In this document: piece after piece, positions 3,001 to 44,200 of the stretch | How positions within the stretch are numbered: position 1 is the first letter of the stretch | How the letters are laid out: the number at the start of each line of letters is the position of its first letter | Assembly (NCBI RefSeq): GCF_026151205.1 | Contig: NC_087078.1 | Coordinates: forward strand, 14,279,118-14,339,117 | From: Bolinopsis microptera | Taxonomy: Eukaryota > Ctenophora > Tentaculata > Lobata > Bolinopsidae | Length of the DNA stretch: 60,000 bases | Direction of reading: 5' to 3' | Translations under genes and position numbers: made by a program | The notes under the pieces: model-generated | What the model was told of the DNA's origin: nothing | Seen by the model: the letters and a program-made list of their open reading frames with translations, nothing else | Database searches by the model: none

Positions 3001-6000
3001 ACGTGACAAAGACATCTTACTGAGCAATTAAAGATGTTTATGTGCTGTTGTCCAATAATCAAGAAAAATTGTTCAATTTATAAAATTTGTGAAGATAATT
3101 TTGTTCTAGAAAGGTTTTACAATTTACCAAATTCGTGAAGATAAATTTGTTAGATATACGTTTATATTCTTTTATATTCTATCCTAAATATTCTGAGGAT
3201 TTTAATGGGGTATTTACTAATTTACTGTACAATTTATCAAATGTAGAAAATTTAATTCCTTTAGGTGGGGGGATGGGGGCTAGATTCTAAAAATCAATTC
3301 AGAACAAGAGTATCTTGCACCACTCCTACCACTACTACTACTACGACTACTCAAAAATTACTGCTTTGTAAAAATTTTAAGATGTATAAAAGGAGGATAG
3401 TGAACTTTTTCCATAACTGACTGGACAAAAACAATTATTTTTATCGGTTATGAATAGAACGATACTGTTATATTAACAAAGATAATTAATATTACTTTAC
3501 TTATATTAAACACCTTTTTACAGATAATGACAACAATGCAACTTACTGGACATTGTTGATGTGAACTAATTTGAGGAGGAGCAGTGCTGAGTGCAAACGA
3601 TTCCTCCAGTTTCCTACTCCAACACTAATTATAATTATTATTATTAACACTGTTCTAAATATCCGCATGACACGCAAAAGACAAGCAGTTTTGTAATTAT
3701 AATTAGTTTTTTCTTCACGCTCCAAGATAAAAACCCACTATAAGTATACCAGATAATAAACAATCACATATCACAAGTATATACTAGCATGCTATTATTA
3801 CACATATATATTTACTAATATTTACTATAATTACATAAATTTACCTAACGTTTGTCTATATAATCATCTGTAAGTGTATGATTATACTATCGAGGTGCCG
3901 TGAACTCTAGCAGAAGAAACATTTGAGCTCTTTGTTTTACACTGAGCAGGCGAGCGCCGTTGTGATCAGAGATTTATAATCATTTTGGCATTTTTATAGT
4001 AGAATCACAATTTGAACAATCGACATCAACAAAATATTCTAGCAAAAACATGGAAATGAAGTTAGTAACTGAAGGAGACTTTGTAGCATTCCACAAAAAT
4101 CTTTTACAGTTTTATGCACGAGCTCAAATTTGATTTCAGAAACCAAGCCAGGCCACGCTGCTGTCAGCAACCTAGCAACGCCTCCAGACAACATCCCATG
4201 GTCCTGCAAACCCCTGGTCATGTCCTATAAACCCCCGACAACGTCCCCTAGCCCCCAACGTCCCCTCTAGGAGCTCTCTAGCAACACCCCTGTGAGGCTC
4301 ACCCAATGACTACGCCCCCAGAACAAATAGAACTATGAGTGTTACAGATAACTGAATGAGTTAGTGCGACTAATACACTCACTACCGTGTGGGTTGTGTC
4401 ATTATCGCTTATCTGGCTTAATACTCACGCCTCCTCCTCTCCGGTTAATAATAAGTATAATAATTTATGAAGGAGTAATAATAAGTAGTGCTTATGACTG
4501 TTGAAATTACCCGTAAAACGGCTTAAGAAATTAGGTAAATTTCCCGGATCTTGGCCAGTTACTGTTTTGCTGGAGTGAAATTAGCGAATAAAATCTGGTT
4601 TGTCGACAATTGCCTCATTATCATAAAGCGATGAGTAGTTGGTCACATGATTGTTGTAGCTATTCACGTGCTTTTTGTAGTTATTCACGTGATCTTTATA
4701 TCAAGTCACGTGTTGTGTTTATGGCAATATGAAACCATGATCGAAAGAAGTTTCAAAAGTGAGTCATTTTCTCTAAATAACTATTCTCTATATAATTATT
4801 TGAAATGCCTGAATGAAATGTCTCTACCCATGGTCATCCACACTTTGTGGGTGCGGTACTGCGGCTGCAGTGAGAGTGTACTTTTTAATTGTGAGACCTT
4901 TTTGATCTGAGAAAGAAATCTAATCTTGCCAGTCACGGCGATGCTCTTAAAATTCTATATAAAATGGCGCAGCAAATTCAGTACAAGTTAGTTATTGAAC
5001 CAAAGTTATTGTTACTAAAGTTACCGAATCTTACCATTCTTCTCCTCACACACAGCAGCTTTACCCCAGTTTGAGATCCCTTTTATACTAGACCAGCGCG
5101 CTGAGAGTAGAAGGTAAAAGTGAGATCAGTGCCGGACAAAGACAAATTCAGATTTGAGAACCTAGCTAAAAGCTATACAGAGAAAAATAGAGAAAAAGGA
5201 ATATTGCCTACCGCCCCATTTTGAAGACGGACCAGTTTCATTTTCAGCTCTATCTGAAATAGCCATCCTTTGACTGCTGAAAAAGTTGCTGAGCAAGTTT
5301 TTGGACTCGTTTGTGGATTCGAAGAGACTTTGAATCGCTGAATTGACAGGAGTCTTGTTGATGAGCCAGGTAATAGGGTTCTCTCCCTGAGTAATAACAC
5401 GCTTCACTTCGTTTATATTGGACCACATCATCGCTTGACTTTCCTCACCTAAAGCTGACTCTATCATTGAAATCTGCTCCTCTTCCTTCTCCTCTCCCGC
5501 CCTTTTCTCCTCGTATATTTTCTCCAAATAAGTCTCAAAGTCTGGACTATCTATATCAGTTACTGGACTTGGTTCGGTTACTTTAATCAAGTTATCGTAA
5601 TCATACTCCATATCCCCATCTTTACCTTCTCCTACAAATATCTTAGAGACTGTAAACCCATCAGAGGAGGAACTTGTCAGCTGAGCCTCCTCAATACTGT
5701 CCTGACTCCTGAACTCCACTACACTGTGGGCAGTGTTGTGGGGGTGAGTCAGGTGACAGGAAGCAGCTGGCAGACACACATCACTGCAACACTCACTTAG
5801 GGAGCTATGAGTGGATCCTGAGGAGGAGGTCCGCTTGTGTGACGAGCACACTTCCAGATACTTGCAGTTCGGCTCCGAGCAGGTTTCTTCTGGGGGTTGG
5901 TGAGTGGTACCTGCTAGAGGTAGAGTGGGGAGGTGAGTAGGGGAGGAGCTGGGAGGGAGATATCTGATATTTCCGGTTGGAGTACTGCTGCTGTGGGCCT

Positions 6001-11774: not shown

Positions 11775-13860
11775 AAAAAAAAAGTATTTATTTTTTAGAG
11801 AGGCTGGGCCTGGGTGGCCCACGAGAGGATAGCATGTGGATGCTTTGCCTACCTCTGGGGTATGGCAGTCCTATGGGAGGATGCCAGTGGAATCAGAATG
11901 TGTAATCAAGGATGATGGTAAGTGTTGTGGGATGTGTCATAGATGAACGCTTAAGTGGTAGCTGGGTGTGGAAAAGAGAGGCGAACTAAGACGACGTGTA
12001 TGGCGGCTGAGATGGCTCACCAAAATTTTCACTGAAAATTTTGAATTAAAAAATTAATTATACAATTAATCGCAAAATAAAAACGATTTTGAATTTGATT
12101 TGTAAAATGATTTTAAAATTTAAATAAAAAACGATTTTCATATTGAACTTGAAAACGATTCTCATTTTTAAAACGATTTTGAGTTTGATTTTGAAAACGA
12201 TGTTGATTTTGATTTTGATTTTGAAAACGATATCGGTTTTGATTTTAAAAACGATATTGATTTTGATTTTAAAAACGATATTGATTTTGATTTTAAAACG
12301 ATATTGATTTTGATTTCGAAAACGATATTGATTTTGATTTTGAAAACCATTTTGATTTTGATTTTGAAAACCATTTTGATTTTGAAAATGGGTTTTTTTT
12401 TTTTTTTTTTTTGGTGGCGGCCGAGATGGCTCAGCTAGCTAATTAGCCGCATGGGATTTATGTTCCGGGGTATTTGGAACAGGTTTAGGGGTTTAAATAG
12501 TTAGTACCTGTCCCAAACCATCAGAAAAATCAAGTTTCGACCTCCCAACCCACTCAGGCCACTCCCAGGGGCCACGCCCATCCCAAAATAGCTGAAATCC
12601 AGGTCGAATCAAGATAGTTAGATGGGCGTGGCCCCTGTGAGTGGCCTGAGTGGGTTGGGAGGTCGAAACTTGATTTTTCTGATGGTTTGGGACAGGTACT
12701 AACTATTTAAACCCCTAAACCTGTTCCAAATACCCCGGAACATAAATCCCATACGGCTAATTAGCTAGCCGTATGGTGGCTGAGCCATCTCGGCCGCCAC
12801 CAAAAAAAAAAAAAAAAAAAACCATTTTCAAAATCAAAATGGTTTTCAAAATCAAAATCAAAATTGTTTTCAAAATCAAAATCAATATCGTTTTAGAAAT
12901 CAAAATTAGTATCGTTTTCAAAATCAAAATCAATATCGTTTTTAAAATCAAAATCAATATCGTTTTTAAAATCAAAACCAATATCGTTTTCAAAATCAAA
13001 TCAAATCAAAATCAATATCGTTTTCAAAATCAAACTCAAAATCGTTTTCAAAATGAGAATCGTTTTCAATTTCAATATGAAAATCGTTTTTTATTTAAAT
13101 TTTAAAATCATTTTACAAATCAAATTCAAAATCGTTTTTATTTTGCGATTAATTGTATAATTAATTTTTTTATTCAAAATTTTCAGTGAAAATTTTGGTG
13201 AGCCATCTCGGCCGCCATAGACGTGTGAGTAGTCGCTATGTTACACCAGTCTGGTCCAGCTCCTCTGGCACTATTAAGCGTTTAGTGTGGTTTGCGAAGT
13301 TGAAGATGGTGGAGGTGTGTTGGTTGTCGGATATGTCATTGACGGAGAGTTAGTAGTCCCGGAAATGTTGCCCTCTTATTTGGGCAATAGCCGGGCACTG
13401 TCCGAGAAAGTGTGAGACAGTCTCCTCTCCGTCGCCGCACATAAGACAAGCACTTGTGCAGTGTGCTTGATTTGCGAATGGTATGGAGGTGTTTGTTCAG
13501 GCCACAATGTCCCGTGATGAGGTGCACTGCAGTTCTGTAATTTTGTCTGTTGTAACTGAGTGTAGTGTTAAGATTTTTGATGATGTTGATGATGTTGATG
13601 TGTTTGTGTCCGAGTGTCAGTTTGTTGTGTCTTAGTTATCCATGATTCTTGATTTAGTGTGGTGACTTTGTTGTCGATCAGGCGTTTGATGTAAGATTGT
13701 GGAATTGGGCACTTCAAAGTGGATCCGAGTACTGTAGAGCTGAACTCGCTGAAGCTCTTGATAATCCTCTGGGGTCTTTCGTCGTATCTCCTGCATTTCG
13801 CAGATCTTGGCTCAGCATCCTGTCGCATCCTCATCTTCGTGATCTTGACTTAAAAATGAG
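11775..13860 (-). pseudogene. Degenerate LINE 3' end (RNase H region), copy A, split by a foldback element
   Basis: Two shifted minus-strand frames at 13834-13568 and 13527-13336 contain SYIKRLIDNKVTTLNQE, then HLITGHCGLNKHLHTI and a Cys-bearing end. This layout is typical of the C-terminal RNase H part of non-LTR retrotransposon polyproteins. The same blocks recur in copy B. The foldback element at 12000-13218 interrupts it; beyond it (11999 to about 11775) the 3' untranslated part resumes and ends in an A-rich tail. It is 5'-truncated and frameshifted, so dead. Confidence 0.75.
12000..13218. mobile_element. 1.2-kb nested foldback element (near-perfect palindrome)
   Basis: Two arms of about 600 bp are reverse complements of each other around about 12605. 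The outer ends are TGGCGGCTGAGATGGCTCAC at 12001 and the complement (with one change) at 13217. Inner copies of the same end (12415 and 12801) flank a central palindrome, so one foldback sits inside another. Each arm holds about 350 bp of degenerate 24-bp repeats (AAAACGATATTGATTTTGAT type) and a 17-21-base homopolymer T or A tract. The flanks share GACGTGT, a probable 7-bp target duplication, and the LINE continues on both sides. It has no transposase. The open frames across it are translations of the repeat. Confidence 0.85.
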
Positions 13861-28100: not shown

Positions 28101-28792
28101 GGTTATAGTCAACAAGTGGAGTCCGCGGCGGATCAGTTCTGAGTCCACCATTCAGTGAAAACCCGCGGTGAATTCGGCAGAGTAATTGATTTTTGTACTG
28201 ATCAGTGATGAGTAGTTCACCTCGACCTGATTTGGAGTCGAGTCCAAAAACCCACATACAGACCCAACAATAGTCTGATGAAAAATATGTCGTAAGACTC
28301 ACGGCGGACTCCCCTCAGACCCAGGCGGGTTCGAGCCGCGAGTCATACAAAATATATTTCATGATCTAACGTCCGCCAGTTGCACTGCCACAGTTGATGT
28401 GTATAGTCTATGAGTATGACTATGAGCTGGCGAATTAAACAATTATTTAACGTCATGTGTCTTCACAAGCTCAATGCTCGTTCTAATACTATCATATCTT
28501 ATCTTCATAATATGTAATCATTTCCAGTCGAATAACTCTCAATTTTCAACTGTTCCGGCATCCGAAAATTAAACAATGTTATGCTATCTTGTTTAATATT
28601 TTCTACTTGTCTTGTAAGCGTTGTCTAGTATTTCTGGATCGTAAGATTATTAAATTTAGAGTCACCTCAGGTCTTAACATCACATCCGCAATCATCCTCA
28701 TTTTACTGATTTATGATCACTATTTATAGTTCCAGGAAAAAGTCTTTATTTTGTTGATATATTGCCAAACGTACAATAGTAGATCCTGCAGA
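25101..28792. other. Gene-poor stretch with microsatellites and a telomere-like patch
   Basis: A (GT)n run at 25440-25454, a (CT)n run at 25664-25686, and a small GC-rich hairpin (CCCGGCCGTAGGCCGGG) near 26009. TTAGGG-like repeats lie at 28071-28100. A GGTTCGAGCC box occurs at 28327 without a paired A box. No convincing exon set was found. Confidence 0.4.
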
Positions 28793-31400
28793 TAAGTAAT
28801 TTATCAAAATTATCTAATTTAACCCTTTGTCTTACTATTAATATTATTAGAATATAACATGTTGCTCGGTGTTTAGTTTTATATCACGTAGTCGTTAACT
28901 TAGTGGATATAATAATACCCCACACACACCGACTATGTTAACAGCTGTTTCCTCTTAACTAGGGTAATGTTTACTTAGACCGCACTGAAATAGTTCACAA
29001 AACAGCCCTGCACACTGCACACTGTACACTGCACAGTGTTGCAGTGCCAGTATGCCAGTGCCAGTGTTACAGTGTTACAGTGCCAGTATTACAGTGCCAG
29101 TATTACAGTGCCAGCATTACAGTGCCAGTATTACAGTGCCAGTACAACTCCTGTCTAACGCTAATACCGCGTATATGTTTTGTTTTTAGTTCTGTTTTTA
29201 GTTCTGGTGCTATATCGCATTACAATTATTAGAACAACAATTATTCAAATGAGAGTTGGTCAGTGTCGTTGTATTCTGTGTAGTGGTCAGTACATCGTCC
29301 AGACATCGCCTCATTCCCCACGCCTGGTGTGATTGTAGTGTCGTGCTCTAATGAATCCACTTATATTTAACTCTACACTTCTACATCCTCTATCAAGTTA
29401 TAATTCCCTTAATATTGACACTTACTTCTACTCCTTCTATTAACTTATTCCGTTGCTGTTGACACGTTATACTACACGATATCACTTAACCCCTACAGCC
29501 CACTACATTCTATTAAGGATCGTCTTATAACACTCCTAGTTTCCAGCTTACTTGCCTGACACGCTTTTGTCGAATACATAATAATAGACTTATACTGCAG
29601 TAGTGTGTATTGTTAATGTTAGTTAGTTAGCGTCACTAGAATAATATATACAACACGTGTCATATGCCGTTAAAATGACCACAAAGTTCATTGTTATATC
29701 GCGTGTTATTGCACAACACGTATTGTTTAAACACTGTGTACTGTATAGTAAGAAATAATCTATCCCTATGCGGTGACCCTATATATATACATATCACCGG
29801 AGACTCGCGGGCGGAACAAAATATTGCACGCGCACGCGCGTGCAATATTTCATATGTCCCCGAGGGCGCTAGCCCGAGGAGGACATATTTTCGTATAGCA
29901 CGGAGGGCCCATCGGGCCCGAGTGCTATACGATTTTTCCGCCCGCGGGTCGAGGTGATGTGGATTATATCCACCAGCGTGAGCTTTTTCTTACAGATATT
30001 AGTTTTTTTTATATCGGGTATATCCATGAGCTTCTCAAGTGTAGTTGTTATGCCACTAATTAGATGATCATTTACTAAGTTTTATAAATGTAAATATATC
30101 GACAATGTAATATATCCACAAGTGGGCGTTTATCACGAAGCTTCAGTTTCCAACAATCACAGCAAATTAATGTACAAGATTTCAGAAATTTTACGAGAAA
30201 ATCATGTTGCTTTTAGTTTAAGATGTTATAGAACAGGCCAAAATGACTGACTATAGAACGAAAAACCGGCCGCTATCAAACAATGTTTCAGCTCATTGTT
30301 TCATGTACATATAATTTTATTGTAAACAATCAAAATATAGGCCCTTCCTCCCTCTCTCCCTCATCTCATTATCTCCCTCTCTCACTCTCTCACTCTCTCC
30401 CTATCTTCCTTTCTCTTTCTCCCACTCTCCTTACCTCCCTCTCTCCCTCTATCCCTCTCTCTTTATCTCCATCTCTCCTCATCTCCCTCTCTCCTCCTCT
30501 CCCTCTCTTTCTCTCCCTCTCTACTTTTCTACCTCTCTCCCCTCTCCCTCCCTGGAACCAGAACAAGCACCGCCAGTCGCCACAGAGCCTGCTACTACCA
30601 CGTGAGTTGTAATTATCAGTTACCAGGGTAACCAGGGTTACCCAGGTAACCAGTTACTAGAGTTTCTGTAGCAGCTACTGAGTGACTGGACAATCAAAAG
30701 TAGTGACCCAGAGAGCTCGAGATCACAGTCTGATTATGGACATTGAATATGAAAGTTAAAGATCAAATTTATAACATCAATTTAAATGGCAGTTTCAAAA
30801 CAAAAACAGGGCAAAATATCTTTTGGGAACACAATAGAATAACACGTAAAATGTCGGCCTAAATTTCAAGGTTTATCAACTGAAATAGTGAACTGAAAAT
30901 GGTAAACACAAAACAATTATCGATACTAATGGATATCACAGGCTTAGACTTAACGTCTCCACGAATTTGGTAACCATAGTAACAGTGTGTCACGTGTTAA
31001 TTATGAGCCAATCATGGCAATCTGCGAGAAAACTGATATAGCATCCGATATAACATAAGCTCAGAGTTCAGAGTTCAGAGTTGATACATTCTTTACATCC
31101 ACATATTGCCGTGGGAACTATTAAAGTGTACTGTGTAGTGTGTAAGTGTGGATCAATAACACTGTTCAGTGTTCAGATTTCATGTCATCTGCTCACGAGA
31201 TGTATCATCAGCGAGATGTATCATCAGGAGACGATACAGAAACTGAAAATATTTTAGAGAACTCCGGGCTATATTGCTACTGGTCAAATTAAATGTCACT
31301 TGTTAGCGGGCTATATCATGAGCGGGCTGTAGAGATATCGGGCCCTTTGACAGCGGGCTGGTGAGAGCCCGCTATGCGAAAAAGCGCACGCTGGTGGATA
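28793..31400. repeat. 2.6-kb tandem duplication, unit 1
   Basis: Runs from TAAGTAATTTATCAAAATTA to CGCACGCTGGTGGATA and is directly followed by a second copy. It contains a CCAGTATTACAGTG minisatellite (29041-29145), a cloverleaf inverted-repeat cluster (29806-29946), and a TIR-bounded segment (29966-31401) with a 200-bp CT-rich tract. The 109- and about 70-codon open frames are identical in both units, so the duplication is recent, but they are low complexity or pass through hairpins and are not called genes. Confidence 0.95.
29806..29946. other. Cloverleaf inverted-repeat cluster, copy 1
   Basis: An outer stem CGCGGGCGGAA/TTCCGCCCGCG encloses three consecutive hairpins. They are ATATTGCACGCGC...GCGTGCAATAT, ATATGTCC...GGACATAT with an inner GGGCGCTAGCCC, and CGTATAGCAC...GTGCTATACG with an inner GGGCCCATCGGGCCC. 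A further small hairpin (CGGTGA...TCACCG) precedes it at 29771-29799. The layout recalls a four-way junction. It is DNA-level symmetry, so it could act as DNA or RNA. Confidence 0.9.
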
Positions 31401-31401
31401 T
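29966..31401. mobile_element. TIR-bounded segment, copy 1
   Basis: Begins ATATCCACCAGCGTGAGC and ends with the complement of ATATCCACCAGCGTGCGC, giving ends of about 22 bp with one mismatch. Near the right end, AGCGGGCT recurs and AGCGGGCT...AGCCCGCT forms a hairpin about 30 bp before the terminus. It has no transposase frame. The left flank (GTGGATTATATCCAC) is itself palindromic. The element class is unknown. Confidence 0.55.
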
Positions 31402-33991
31402 AAGTAATTTATCAAAATTATCTAATTTAACCCTTTGTCTTACTATTAATATTATTAGAATATAACATGTTGCTCGGTGTTTAGTTTTATATCACGTAGT
31501 CGTTAACTTAGTGGATATAATAATACCCCACACACACCGACTATGTTAACAGCTGTTTCCTCTTAACTAGGGTAATGTTTACTTAGACCGCACTGAAATA
31601 GTTCACAAAACAGCCCTGCACACTGTACACTGCACAGTGTTGCAGTGCCAGTATGCCAGTGCCAGTGTTACAGTGTTACAGTGCCAGTATTACAGTGCCA
31701 GTGTTACAGTGCCAGTATGCCAGTGCCAGTACAACTCCTGTCTAACGCTAATACCGCGTATATGTTTTGTTTTTAGTTCTGTTTTTAGTTCTGGTGCTAT
31801 ATCGCATTACAATTATTAGAACAACAATTATTCAAATGAGAGTTGGTCAGTGTCGTTGTATTCTGTGTAGTGGTCAGTACATCGTCCAGACATCGCCTCA
31901 TTCCCCACGCCTGGTGTGATTGTAGTGTCGTGCTCTAATGAATCCACTTATATTTAACTCTACACTTCTACATCCTCTATCAAGTTATAATTCCCTTAAT
32001 ATTGACACTTACTTCTACTCCTTCTATTAACTTATTCCGTTGCTGTTGACACGTTATACTACACGATATCACTTAACCCCTACAGCCCACTACATTCTAT
32101 TAAGGATCGTCTTATAACACTCCTAGTTTCCAGCTTACTTGCCTGACACGCTTTTGTCGAATACATAATAATAGACTTATACTGCAGTAGTGTGTATTGT
32201 TAATGTTAGTTAGTTAGCGTCACTAGAATAATATATACAACACGTGTCATATGCCGTTAAAATGACCACAAAGTTCATTGTTATATCGCGTGTTATTGCA
32301 CAACACTAACGTATTGTTTAAACACTGTGTACTGTATAGTAAGAAATAATCTATCCCTATGCGGTGACCCTATATATATACATATCACCGGAGACTCGCG
32401 GGCGGAACAAAATATTGCACGCGCACGCGCGTGCAATATTTCATATGTCCCCGAGGGCGCTAGCCCGAGGAGGACATATTTTCGTATAGCACGGAGGGCC
32501 CATCGGGCCCGAGTGCTATACGATTTTTCCGCCCGCGGGTCGAGGTGATGTGGATTATATCCACCAGCGTGAGCTTTTTCTTACAGATATTAGTTTTTTT
32601 TATATCGGGTATATCCATGAGCTTCTCAAGTGTAGTTGTTATGCCACTAATTAGATGATCATTTACTAAGTTTTATAAATGTAAATATATCGACAATGTA
32701 ATATATCCACAAGTGGGCGTTTATCACGAAGCTTCAGTTTCCAACAATCACAGCAAATTAATGTACAAGATTTCAGAAATTTTACGAGAAAATCATGTTG
32801 CTTTTAGTTTAAGATGTTATAGAACAGGCCAAAATGACTGACTATAGAACGAAAAACCGGCCGCTATCAAACAATGTTTCAGCTCATTGTTTCATGTACA
32901 TATAATTTTATTGTAAACAATCAAAATATAGGCCCTTCCTCCCTCTCTCCCTCATCTCATTATCTCCCTCTCTCACTCTCTCACTCTCTCCCTATCTTCC
33001 TTTCTCTTTCTCCCACTCTCCTTACCTCCCTCTCTCCCTCTATCCCTCTCTCTTTATCTCCATCTCTCCTCATCTCCCTCTCTCCTCCTCTCCCTCTCTT
33101 TCTCTCCCTCTCTACTTTTCTACCTCTCTCCCCTCTCCCTCCCTGGAACCAGAACAAGCACCGCCAGTCGCCACAGAGCCTGCTACTACCACGTGAGTTG
33201 TAATTATCAGTTACCAGGGTAACCAGGGTTACCCAGGTAACCAGTTACTAGAGTTTCTGTAGCAGCTACTGAGTGACTGGACAATCAAAAGTAGTGACCC
33301 AGAGAGCTCGAGATCACAGTCTGATTATGGACATTGAATATGAAAGTTAAAGATCAAATTTATAACATCAATTTAAATGGCAGTTTCAAAACAAAAACAG
33401 GGCAAAATATCTTTTGGGAACACAATAGAATAACACGTAAAATGTCGGCCTAAATTTCAAGGTTTATCAACTGAAATAGTGAACTGAAAATGGTAAACAC
33501 AAAACAATTATCGATACTAATGGATATCACAGGCTTAGACTTAACGTCTCCACGAATTTGGTAACCATAGTAACAGTGTGTCACGTGTTAATTATGAGCC
33601 AATCATGGCAATCTGCGAGAAAACTGATATAGCATCCGATATAACATAAGCTCAGAGTTCAGAGTTCAGAGTTGATACATTCTTTACATCCACATATTGC
33701 CGTGGGAACTATTAAAGTGTACTGTGTAGTGTGTAAGTGTGGATCAATAACACTGTTCAGTGTTCAGATTTCATGTCATCTGCTCACGAGATGTATCATC
33801 AGCGAGATGTATCATCAGGAGACGATACAGAAACTGAAAATATTTTAGAGAACTCCGGGCTATATTGCTACTGGTCAAATTAAATGTCACTTGTTAGCGG
33901 GCTATATCATGAGCGGGCTGTAGAGATATCGGGCCCTTTGACAGCGGGCTGGTGAGAGCCCGCTATGCGAAAAAGCGCACGCTGGTGGATA
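31401..33991. repeat. 2.6-kb tandem duplication, unit 2
   Basis: Head-to-tail copy of unit 1, 17 bp shorter. The difference is accounted for by a 7-bp and a 14-bp loss in the minisatellite and a 4-bp gain (TAAC) near 32306. Its right end again stops at the CGCTGGTGGATAT terminus, after which different sequence begins. Confidence 0.95.
32397..32537. other. Cloverleaf inverted-repeat cluster, copy 2
   Basis: Same as the cluster at 29806-29946, shifted by 2,591 bp, with all stems preserved. Confidence 0.9.
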
Positions 33992-33992
33992 T
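32557..33992. mobile_element. TIR-bounded segment, copy 2
   Basis: Second copy of 29966-31401, carried by the tandem duplication. Confidence 0.55.
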
Positions 33993-35929
33993 ATAGATCT
34001 CTCCACAGATCACATCGGCATATTCGAGGCCTCGTGGTATCTCTATACCTACTCAGTACCTACTCATTACTACTAACATCTCGTCATATTTTGAGTTATT
34101 TCATTTGTTCTGTAGTGTTCTGTGATCTTACATTTCATTGTTACGTGCTTCTTTTGTCTTGCTTTTTTATTTTGATAGTTTTAATCCGTAGGAATGTATC
34201 GGATGCATGTCAAATAATTAACATGCTACAGTTAATTAATGTATTGTTGTATCCCAATACTTACATAATACGCTATGGTCAGTTCTCTTCTTCTTCTGAT
34301 TGGTCGGCGTCGACTGTAAGCCTTCCTTTCGGTGGCTTTCACAACGAGCCCCTATGTCTCCAACTCCTGCTGCTGGAGAGAGAGAGAGACTCCCAAATTA
34401 TATACCATTAATACCAAATTATATACTCACGCCTTACGGGCATCTTTTGTCTTGCTATTCTATTTTGATCACTTTTTAATCTCTAAGAATTTTATGTATC
34501 ATAAAAATGCTACAGCTCAGCTTAATGTTTTGTTTTATCTCGGAATTTGCCGGATTTATTTCCCATATTTCTCATATTTAACCCAGTGTACTTCTCATGT
34601 AGCTATGCCAAACGTTGTAGCAGAGCGAATAATAGATGTTTTCAGAATATTCAAACCTAAATGGAACAGTCTTCAGAAAGACACAAACAGAGAGGAACAG
34701 TGAGTAGCAAACTTTATTCTTAATAATTTACAGCGAGATAATATTGAGATTAGAAGAATGTCCAGAGCGATTGATTGAGTACACTCGGTAACCCGAGGGT
34801 GTCCATTATAAAGACCTTGTGGGCCAACTACACTATTCTAATTGTAATTGCAACTGTGTCAACGTTTTGTTTCTCTGTAACATTTTCTCTGCAACTCTTC
34901 TAGAGGTACACTACACATCACACCAGTGTTAGAAGCAGTGTATAACTTTATAGTGCAACAAGCAGACTTTAGTCTAGCCACCTCCTGCCACCTACGCAAC
35001 ATGTAAAGTTAAAGGACGACAAGGGGGGGGGGCCCCCCACGGGGGGGTACCAAGCCTTTTAGTTTGTATAGAGTCACCAGTCACCAACAAAACATAACGT
35101 AACGTCTGCCCTACTTAACTGATTCTCTTAATTTCACCAGTGGGGCAGCGAGGTGGTGCTGACTGCTGTACCCACAACCCGTGCGGTTTGGTGACTGATA
35201 TCAGTATAGCCGGAACTAGGAGTAGGTTCCACAGTTGAAAGTACAATTTTCTCGTAGTTTATTCACATCTCATAAGCTCATGTTATATACACCAACATAA
35301 TATTATATGTGAATTATGATATTCACTCTCCGGGTCGAACAACAGGAAAACACTGCGTCTAAATTCGTGAAGCACGTGCTCCTTCATAAACAGCTTGGTT
35401 GAACGGGGGAAATGTTAGCATATGTAACCGGTCTCGAAACAGCATTCTAAATGTCAGAGTCAGACTAAATGTCACGTGATCAGAACACGTGACTGGTTTC
35501 TGCTTAGTGATTGGTTGAGATGTTGCACTATCCGCTGTAGGATTGGTTGGGTAGCAAGACAAGAGATAGGAAATCCCCGGGGTATATTTGCCTGCTAGTT
35601 CTCTCAGTCCCTCAATTTTGCTTGCTTTGTCCCTTGACGGTTTGTCTGCAGTTGCTACCCCAAGTAGAAGATACTGCAGAACTTGTCGCTCCCCAAGAAG
35701 ATGCAACCGGAACAGAAACTTATATTGAAACTCATATTTCTTCACGACGCAAGGTTAGCTTTTATGTATGACCGAATGAATATATGAATGGGCGACTCTA
35801 GCAAGCTAGTGGTCCATCTCCTTTTCTTTCGCGGTACGGCCTCAGCGTTTTTCGATGTCACTGAACTACACTACACAATACACGTAAGCATTAGAGTCAT
35901 TTCAAATCTCTAACGAAAGCCTCTACCAT
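33993..35929. other. Gene-poor stretch with two exon-like islands
   Basis: An island at 34629-34700 encodes ERIIDVFRIFKPKWNSLQK before a GTGAGT donor. A second at 35649-35752 encodes VEDTAELVAPQEDATGTETY between a CTGCAG acceptor and a GTTAGC donor. They do not join in phase, so no gene is called. A G10C6...G7 run lies at 35023-35047. The opposite-strand 128-codon frame at 35359-35745 overlaps the second island and has no recognised family. Confidence 0.3.
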
Positions 35930-41200: not shown

Positions 41201-44200
41201 AAAGTCACAGCTTTTTACGGAGTTATGGGCAGTATGTCATGTCTGGGTCCTATCTTCGGGTTCGCATTTGGAGGTTTTATGTTGAAATACTATGTGGACT
41301 TCTCCGAGCCTGAAGGACTGACTCCCAGTGACAGTGAGTGGATTGGAGCCTGGTGGACTGGGTTCATACTGTCCGGAATAATGGCAGTTCTCTCAGCCAT
41401 CCCTCTTATCATGTTCCCTCGCAAACTTCCTGAGGCTGACGAGGTCCTTACTATGAAGATAGCTGCGGGTGAGTTTACCTACCATAAAATAACTATCCTC
41501 CTATAATTTAGTTACACTTTTTTACAGCACCATATTACACTTAATAGTATTACGATTGATTTAGTTATCCAATATTGAAAGAACCGCCCTTGCTCAGGTA
41601 TCGCGTCACCTGAGACCAACAGAGAGTCGGAGAACTCGAAGGAGAAGATGACGGTACTGGAGATGGCACTGGAGTTCTGGCCCACTATAAAGACCCTCTT
41701 CAGTAACGGACCCTACATGTGCTGTACACTCTCACAAGCCTTTACTGGTTTCCTCATAGGGGCCTGTTCCTTCCTTCCTAAACTAGTACAGATAGGACTA
41801 AAGTGAGTGTTAAATTTATCAGTTTTTTTTTCGTCTCTTTCCCTTAAACATTCAGTCACGAGTATTAATTTGTTAGTCATCGGCTATCTCCAGAATAAGT
41901 TTCACCCAAATTTCAGCCTTAAGCACCTGGATTAATACCCGAAGAAAAAATTCCCAAAATTAGATTCGCAAACGGATGTTTTTCGGCCACAATTTGCTCT
42001 TCTGAGTTCGTATTTAGAGCTACAACTTGAGCAGATAAATGGTATGTGACCCACTGTAACGGTACTACTAAAGGTGCTACATAAGTAACGTAACTTCACA
42101 AGTCGGTATTGAATGTGCATCATGCACCAAACCTAACCTAGAGTAGAAAAATACCCTGGAAATGAGAAGTGCTTGTTCCAGTTTTCCTGGCGTGAGTCAG
42201 CTCACCATGGTAAGGTCACTGCCAATAATGAATTAAGTTCCATTTGTAATGTCAATATTATCACGATAACAATGTAAGAATTCTCGTACGAGTAATGCAG
42301 ATATGAGCGTTGAATGTTGATATAAGTCTCTTAACAATATCAGGCGGTGTAATAAACATTTATCCATTTTATAACCAGCGTTAAAAATGAACAAATTCTG
42401 ACTGTCCCCGTTAAGAAGGTGACTGGAATTTAATAATTTTGGGGTAACCGATTAGTTTGCACGCTTCACGCTTTGAATTGATTAATCTGGTGAATTATCT
42501 CTCATGCTTGTATATTGCATATTTACAGTATTGTAAAGTTATAAGATAACCGGACAGGTTAAAATTAGGGTACCTGGTATTCCTTACCTTCTCTAAAACA
42601 ATTCATCTTGCAATATTTCCAGCCGTGTAAGCTTCCTCAAAAATACTAAAGTAAAGGTATATAGTTCAGGTTCTAAAGTAACGGTATATTGTTCAGGTTT
42701 CTAAAGTAACGGTATATTGTTCAGGTTTGAGCCCTCTCAAGCTAGTTTTTACCTGGGCACAGTGTTGGTATCGGCTGCAGGAGGTGGTTACCTCATCGGC
42801 GGTTATCTCTCACAGAAACTCAAAATGGACGGAAAGTCTGCAGCTAAGTACGGCTTTATATTCTCTATATTCGGAGCAATACCTTCCTTTGGTATGTTGA
42901 TGCACTGTCCGGGAGTGGTTATGGGAGAAGCTTCCTTATCTTCCGGGTAAGTTTCTAGCTTATTGATCTCTTATAGTAATAGCCATTTTACTTGAATAGC
43001 ACAAATCGAATTTATTACTGTCGTGAAACCCCGATTTACTGCTAACCCCGGCCATTTCCTTTTCCTCAATGTCAATATACATGATTTAAACATACAGTAA
43101 AATGATAACTCATATCCCAGGGTTAGCCTAGCCTCAATGCATCCTCTGGACCCAGGATATGCAATGAACATGTGCGCGGATAGCTGCAAGTGTCCCACAG
43201 ACTATGACCCAGTTTGTGGACAAGACATGACTTTCTCTTCGCCCTGTCACGCGGGGTGCACTGTTAAGGAGCTGATAGACGAAAAATACTATGTAAGTTA
43301 GAACAGTTGTTTTACACGTTATAGATGTGGATTCTGGTGGGGAGGTGAGGCATATTTGTTTACATGAAAGTTGACACGACGTGATAAATCCATGCAATAA
43401 TCCCATATATGGAATAATTGCATGGATTGATCACGTGTCAACTTTTAGGTAAACAAATATGCCTCACCTCCCCACCATAATCCACATCTATTACTCTATT
43501 AGTCTTATAATGCTCACTTCCAAATCTTTTAAGTAATGTAATATTACAAACTAGCACACAATATTATGGCGGAGTAAAATGACTGAAATGGCAAATAAAA
43601 TGGCAAACGAAAGAACTGAATACTGATCAGTATAATGCATGGCCTAAAAGCAATTGATAAGATAAGAGTGTCCCTGTGCGAGCTGATAAGACAGTATTCT
43701 CACATTTTACTTTCTTCAGACTCTAGAACATTCTCTCTGAATCAAGATTAGTTAGTCATGTCTTAGGAATCTTTAATTTAAAATACGATAACAATAACAC
43801 TACCCCTATTCAGAAATTCTCAAACTGCTCATGTCTGATGACGGATGAGATCATTGTGGGACTAGATAACGCATCATACCACGCTACCAGCGGTAAATGC
43901 GAGACTGACTGCCCTACCTACGTGCCTGTCATGTACCTTGGCTCAGCTTTTCTAACCCTCTTCTTCTGCTTCCTGGCCCAGCCCGCTAGTATGCTGGCTC
44001 TGAACAGGTCAGTTACTTAACAGGTTTCAAGTCTGGTAACTAATCTAGGTAAACTATAGGTAAAAATATAATATTAATCATAAGCTAAAATGTACTAATC
44101 TTTGTATTCTAAATTATATTATTATTTATACAGTTTAGTCCCTGCCTAGGTACTACCTAGTACTTAGTAAGTTAGTACTTTACCCCCCTTTGCTCGACTA

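Follow-up and report, generated by a model that had tools for sequence, protein, structure and literature searches.

The window, a stretch of 60,000 nucleotides of the Bolinopsis microptera genome, contains a cloverleaf of three hairpins enclosed by an outer stem, in an element that is present twice (Table 1). The cloverleaf is real and its folding is far beyond chance: folded as DNA, positions 29800-29955 reach -62.6 kcal/mol, compared to -27.65 ± 3.11 kcal/mol for 200 dinucleotide shuffles, none of which was as low (z = -11.24). This confirms the three hairpins of the preliminary description. The outer stem, put there at 11 bp, is present, but is longer, with an inner part of 15 bp and a further part of 6 bp. 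The terminal inverted repeat noted nearby also exists, as 26 nt of 96% complementarity (29964-29989 and 31378-31403). An open frame of 88 amino acids runs through the block (29691-29957), and is not generally in register because related ends have 2- and 6-nt indels there.

A loose filter for three hairpins in a stem, applied to 996 segments of the 60 kb, found 12 places. Among these, only the cloverleaf locus and its duplicate are very stable (-70 to -75 kcal/mol per 260 nt); the remaining 10 lie between -16 and -32 kcal/mol per 260 nt. Other very stable folds in the window, at 12421-12800 (to -132.6) and 43261-43580 (to -80.3 kcal/mol per 260 nt), are probably long inverted repeats.

Table 1. 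Positions of the element, its copy and the parts of the folded end within the window
Feature	Position	Strand	Remarks
Non-autonomous Crypton element, copy 1	29781-31402	+	Ends common to loci with other interior and flanks
L'' arm ATATCACC	29791-29798	+	At terminus; first strand of outer stem
Cloverleaf	29793-29958	+	Outer stem 29793-29798/29953-29958 (6 bp) and 29802-29816/29936-29950 (15 bp)
Hairpin 1	29819-29850	+	Tip inverted in family B and L035
Hairpin 2 (middle)	29852-29888	+	CGAG/CGAG internal loop at 29861-29864 and 29875-29878
Hairpin 3	29891-29932	+	
L' arm GGTGATGT	29953-29960	+	
R', inverted copy of opposite terminus	29965-29989	+	
Conserved opposite end	31221-31402	+	Ends in R'' CGCTGGTGGATATA, 31389-31402
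Copy 2 of element	32372-33993	+	Within 2.6 kb tandem segmental duplication

As judged by comparison of loci, the cloverleaf is one end of a non-autonomous transposon of about 1.6 kb, whose limits are good only to a few bases because both ends sit in TATA-rich sequence. The conserved ends are about 200 and 180 bp long, and the interiors vary in length and content. The genome holds at least 42 cloverleaf ends, full or nearly full and 95-100% identical, both window copies counted (40 of 222 candidates were scored; 41 further rows were short self-palindromic matches), so the block, known to the preliminary description only from the window, is not confined to one locus. The opposite terminus, CGCTGGTGGATATA, occurs 397 times, against once for the reversed control. 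The opposite end also carries repeated GCGGGCT boxes and a hairpin at 31352-31373, which could be arm-type binding sites.

The second copy of the block, at 32397-32537, had been taken as evidence that every stem survives. It is present, but it lies in a tandem segmental duplication whose units (28792-31402 and 31400-33993) are 99.0% identical, and it is not independent support because the repeated unit includes about 970-990 bp from outside the element. The flank starts CAGATAAGTAATT before unit 1 and GGATATAAGTAATT after the right end of the element, and the duplication therefore joins the right end to an upstream GATA-like site. At the joint (28780-33993), CAGATA/AGTAATT is found versus GGATATA/AGTAATT, which one-ended recombination with a look-alike site might give.

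Recombinase genes and insertion sites

Six long candidate end pairs were fetched, and exons of a tyrosine recombinase (YR) were found in only one of them (L010, family A), which has about 4.1 kb between its outer ends and stop codons just before its last exon. Among the other pairs, L013 has no A-type end, L009 and L014 have no long open reading frame that we recognised, and L011 and L012 have long frames which, by motif, resemble LINE reverse transcriptases. Two further loci (L015 and L016) have ends approximately 82% identical to those of L010 and define family B, of which there are at least 34 ends at 91-100% identity (from 40 scored among 230 candidates). The L015 gene has four exons, joined at GT-AG splice sites, and encodes a protein of 534 amino acids that matches both DUF3504 (PF12012, 9.4e-11) and Phage_integrase (PF00589, 1.6e-6) above the Pfam cut-offs. 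PF12012 is also found above cut-off in families C, D, E and F; the family A exon of L010, which is 60-73% identical to B, scores below it at 0.0035. Of the R-H-R-Y tetrad, read by eye, the first R, the second R and Y are present in A to E wherever the exon was read, and the position of the catalytic histidine (HxxR) is taken by R in families A to C and by K in D, with H only in E.

Further YR genes occur in the genome at about 30-37% identity. There were 31 exon-level YR matches, and the loci fetched do not include those at C1:22197473, C4:8198641, C12:12375743, C6:5988048 and the family B gene at C11:19843188. A sequence search of the PDB gave one weak match, to QRICH1 (E 0.054), and an AlphaFold prediction of the L040 open reading frame, made without an alignment, had a mean pLDDT of 40.5, too low to be of use.

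DUF3504 derives from the Crypton YR, and DNA elements with YR only are described as Cryptons in the available text of the main survey (PMC3212892). The same text reports animal Cryptons (CryptonA; Kojima and Jurka, 2011) to carry a DUF3504 YR gene and to have non-autonomous derivatives that outnumber the coding copies, as here. According to it, animal Cryptons have neither direct nor inverted terminal repeats, and the terms "hairpin" and "palindrom-" are absent from it; how these elements mark their ends has so far been unclear. By contrast with the elements described in that text, those found here have an asymmetric inverted copy of one terminus and a large fold. Membership of the Cryptons nevertheless rests on the YR, because the absence of terminal repeats is a reported trait rather than a required one. 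It is close to certain that the cloverleaf is a Crypton end. The earlier suggestion of an undescribed mobile element thus holds as to the mobile element, and fails as to its kind, since the coding relatives are Cryptons.

Flanks were compared for 21 pairs from families A and B, including both window copies (one left flank is missing). They diverge outside ATATACATATCACC in A or ATAGATATCACC in B, and outside GCTGGTGGATATA at the other end. The two ends have a TATA-type core in common, which is present in 20 of the 21 pairs, namely those read on both sides. Fungal Cryptons likewise have a short direct repeat of the target at their ends (PMC3212892). In one locus (L003) the element has inserted into a further copy of its own kind, and another (L005) has that site unoccupied (TTTGATATAAATCAAAG). 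Head-to-tail junctions occur twice in L005 and once in L018 (both family A), with no spacer, and also in L072 (family C), and are consistent with a circular intermediate. Ends also abut head to head at C7:12134007-12134016, C3:20199444-20199453 and C4:9140257-9140264; in two of these three an A-type end meets a B-type end, which would fit insertion of one family at the end of the other.

Element ends in families A to F

An alignment of 26 ends was made from families A (8 ends) and B (18 ends), omitting the A ends of L001-L008, L011, L012 and L038 and the second end of L016. Pairing holds in 95.0% of its cells, and covariation scores 0.057, compared to 0.024 ± 0.003 in shuffled alignments (0 of 500) and 0.004-0.025 in slid controls. 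The preliminary description had named compensating changes between copies as support for selection on structure, and uncorrelated stem mutations as a refutation. The stem changes are not simply uncorrelated: paired changes between A and B are present at 29803/29949, 29806/29946, 29808/29944, 29856/29884 and the outermost pair (columns 7/198, RNAalifold), with one extra double change in L010 at 29828/29841. However, these five pairs with double changes are not in excess of shuffles (4.1 ± 0.6; 104 of 500), nor are the 13 further pair types (12.0 ± 0.5; 72 of 500), and three pairs of the outer or middle stem (29805/29947, 29815/29937 and 29860/29879) are lost in most B copies. Most of the double changes between A and B are single events common to many copies. 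No clear strand bias of wobble changes was seen by eye in the A and B stems.

The tip of hairpin 1 (29829-29840) is inverted between most A ends and the B ends, CGCGCACGCGCG versus CGCGCGTGCGCG; one A end (L035) has the B-type tip, which amounts to a hairpin-tip flip. In two family B ends (L033 and L034) the right arm of the outer stem is of A type; these ends are likely chimeras arising from recombination or gene conversion.

Stronger support for selection on structure than this covariation comes from families C (L039, L040) and D (L041), where three hairpins within an outer stem again lie 3' of the recombinase gene, and where blastn of the A and B ends against L039-L046 gave no match at E 0.01. 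Family D is a single locus. For family C, 40 of 236 candidates were scored, and the copies (20 fetched plus L040) are by eye too alike for a covariation test. We looked for the three-hairpin arrangement in 16 fetched loci, requiring 8 bp or more both in each hairpin and in the enclosing stem. At a threshold of -50 kcal/mol or lower, matches were found only at element ends: in L009, L010, L011, L015, L016 (two), L039 (two), L040 and L041. At -30 kcal/mol two places were added, one in L043 and one in L009. There was no match in L012, L013, L017, L042 or L044-L046; these include two loci with partial A/B-like genes (L045 and L017) and one (L042) that matches L041 over 1,383 bp only, in none of which was a cloverleaf found.

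Family E has no cloverleaf and has instead a single long hairpin 3' of the YR gene. In an alignment of 20 of its ends (L057 dropped as nearly identical to L056, and L044 not included), 92.2% of cells pair and the covariation score is 0.061, compared to 0.037 ± 0.006 in shuffles (1 of 500). Three pairs have double changes, which is not in excess of the 2.3 ± 0.9 in shuffles (196 of 500); a change from C-G to G-C is seen in 5 of the 20 ends. The 3' side of family F (L046) consists of nested inverted repeats: in this sixth DUF3504 element, a 5' region (gene-sense 1822-2010) is repeated inversely, nested on the 3' side (4699-5231).

The middle hairpin of families A to D and the sole hairpin of family E have in common the order CTCG-stem-loop-stem-CTCG on the gene-sense strand (CGAG/CGAG on the other). 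The two CTCG are non-complementary, yet they persist in hairpins that are paired elsewhere, which is what recognition of the folded form would predict. Tandem G-A loops, and GNA sequences at hairpin tips, are known for their unusual stability in DNA. In A, B and E the antisense (CGAG) strand folds better, the margin being about 3 to 7 kcal/mol; the difference between strands is 0.2 kcal/mol in D, and in C it is 1.3 kcal/mol in favour of the gene-sense strand. That several distantly related Crypton families keep a similar folded end suggests, without proving it, that the enzyme recognises folded DNA in the manner of integrons.

A proposed folded recombination site

In all five of families A to E, the opposite (5') terminus has an inverted copy directly upstream of the fold. 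The copy extends over 17 to 32 aligned positions and was matched by none of 1000 shuffles per family, in search windows chosen by eye. In the joined termini, a TATA-type core lies between GGTGGATAT and ATATCACC; the site cores are TATA-type in A and B and TGTT-type in C. The usual YR site consists of a pair of inverted arms, each 11-13 bp long and separated by 6-8 bp, according to the available text of PMC3212892.

We propose, with belief and doubt evenly weighed, that Cryptons have a recombination site at their 3' end (in gene sense) of which the cloverleaf forms the folded half, and that the YR recognises the fold, probably as one strand. The replacement of the catalytic histidine in A to D, the single hairpin of E and the loci in which no such end was found weigh against this proposal. 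Read in gene sense, the element would run from R'' (the 5' terminus) through the YR gene, absent from the window copies, to R'-L'-folded insert-L'' (the 3' terminus). On joining of the ends, L'' and R'' would form a core site of YR type, with inverted arms around the TATA-type core, and the near-inverted copy R'-L' would sit across the fold from it. With this near-copy beyond the cloverleaf, the joined site can therefore fold as one long branched hairpin, like attC; the predicted folds of the joined site reach -82.8 kcal/mol in L018 and -80.3 kcal/mol in L011. The YR would recognise the folded form, probably of one strand (the + strand of the window), and the folded site would then recombine with a double-stranded TATA-type target.

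The attC core has the consensus GTTRRRY, and the core here is TATA-type; because an attC-type core is lacking, the Crypton ends are attC-like and not attC, and they are eukaryotic. As far as can be taken from the available text of PMC2727003, attC shares with the Crypton ends the order R''-L''-terminal structure-L'-R', palindromic overall, a structure kept while its sequence varies, a terminal structure that may branch, and recombination by a YR. In Cryptons this order is found only where ends are joined (L005, L018 and L072), since in the integrated element R'' is at the far end. Integron cassettes have been published to recombine as one folded strand, attC being the folded bottom strand, whereas for Cryptons we infer single-strand use. 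More tentatively, and as a possibility we rate below an even chance, animal-type Cryptons may be the eukaryotic counterpart of integron cassettes, their YR recombining one folded strand, with the cloverleaf and its tandem G-A loop as a recognition signal kept as the sequence changed. Some bacterial integrative elements, including SE-6945, are reported to make their circle from one strand with YR-type recombinases; these differ in being bacterial, and for SE-6945 the authors state that no attC-like inverted repeats were detected in attB, attL or attR.

The fold might instead act in double-stranded DNA, as palindromes extruded into cruciforms in a supercoiled circle, or as dyads to which the recombinase or a protein of the host binds and which shape the complex; YR recombination would then be of the ordinary double-strand type. 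All the covariation observed would fit duplex palindromes as well as a folded strand; moreover, the two strands fold equally well in D, and in C the order is slightly reversed. However, whereas repeated binding sites would resemble one another, the sequences of the hairpins differ, and the non-complementary CTCG/CTCG loop is kept within them; on balance we think this explanation unlikely.

We consider it distinctly improbable that the inverted terminus and hairpins serve in replication or in defining the end, as in Helitron2 or DIRS elements, the latter of which have an internal complementary region. The available text of PMC3627910 describes Helitron2 with asymmetric inverted repeats, the 5' repeat at the terminus and the 3' repeat just upstream of a hairpin, and this order is matched in families A to E. 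The genes between the ends, however, are YR (DUF3504) and not RepHel, the flanks have a common TATA-type core, and families A to D have a cloverleaf of three hairpins. The genome has 41 matches to Helitron_like_N, and by eye none of the matches listed is within 50 kb of the element ends listed; with a YR gene instead of RepHel, we reject identification of these elements as Helitrons. The Helitron_like_N matches have uninterrupted frames of up to 3388 amino acids, and three copies on C11 are about 10-12 kb apart (C11:3834408-3857170 and others).

That the fold is a structured RNA, as the preliminary description also allowed, for example a 3' UTR element of the recombinase mRNA or the precursor of a small RNA cut from it, is very improbable indeed: the fold does sit 3' of the YR gene in families A to E, but elements that lack the gene retain it, with identities of up to 100%, along with the far end, the outer stem takes in the terminal arm, and a wobble bias for one strand is not clear by eye. 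A known structured RNA family is rejected, Rfam giving no match at gathering score in five loci (L010, L016, L040, L041 and L043).

No published account of such Crypton ends was found in the open literature, including the available text of PMC3627910 and PMC7175516 (subscription journals, preprints and Repbase were outside its scope). The fold and the inverted opposite terminus, seen in five families of one genome, constitute a testable Crypton end structure, offer a way to delimit Cryptons elsewhere, and may connect the YR transposons of eukaryotes with the recombination of folded strands in integrons. DUF3504 domains that descend from Crypton recombinases are found in human genes, among them ZMYM2, QRICH1 and KIAA1958, according to the available text of PMC3212892, and the ancestral DNA target therefore bears on what these domains might bind. 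As a minor observation on the recombinases themselves, in families A and B they terminate with hydrophobic residues, for example MLTIALILIVILVTFILTRMLN, a stretch which resembles a membrane anchor (L015:4530-4890; L010:676-993, reverse strand).
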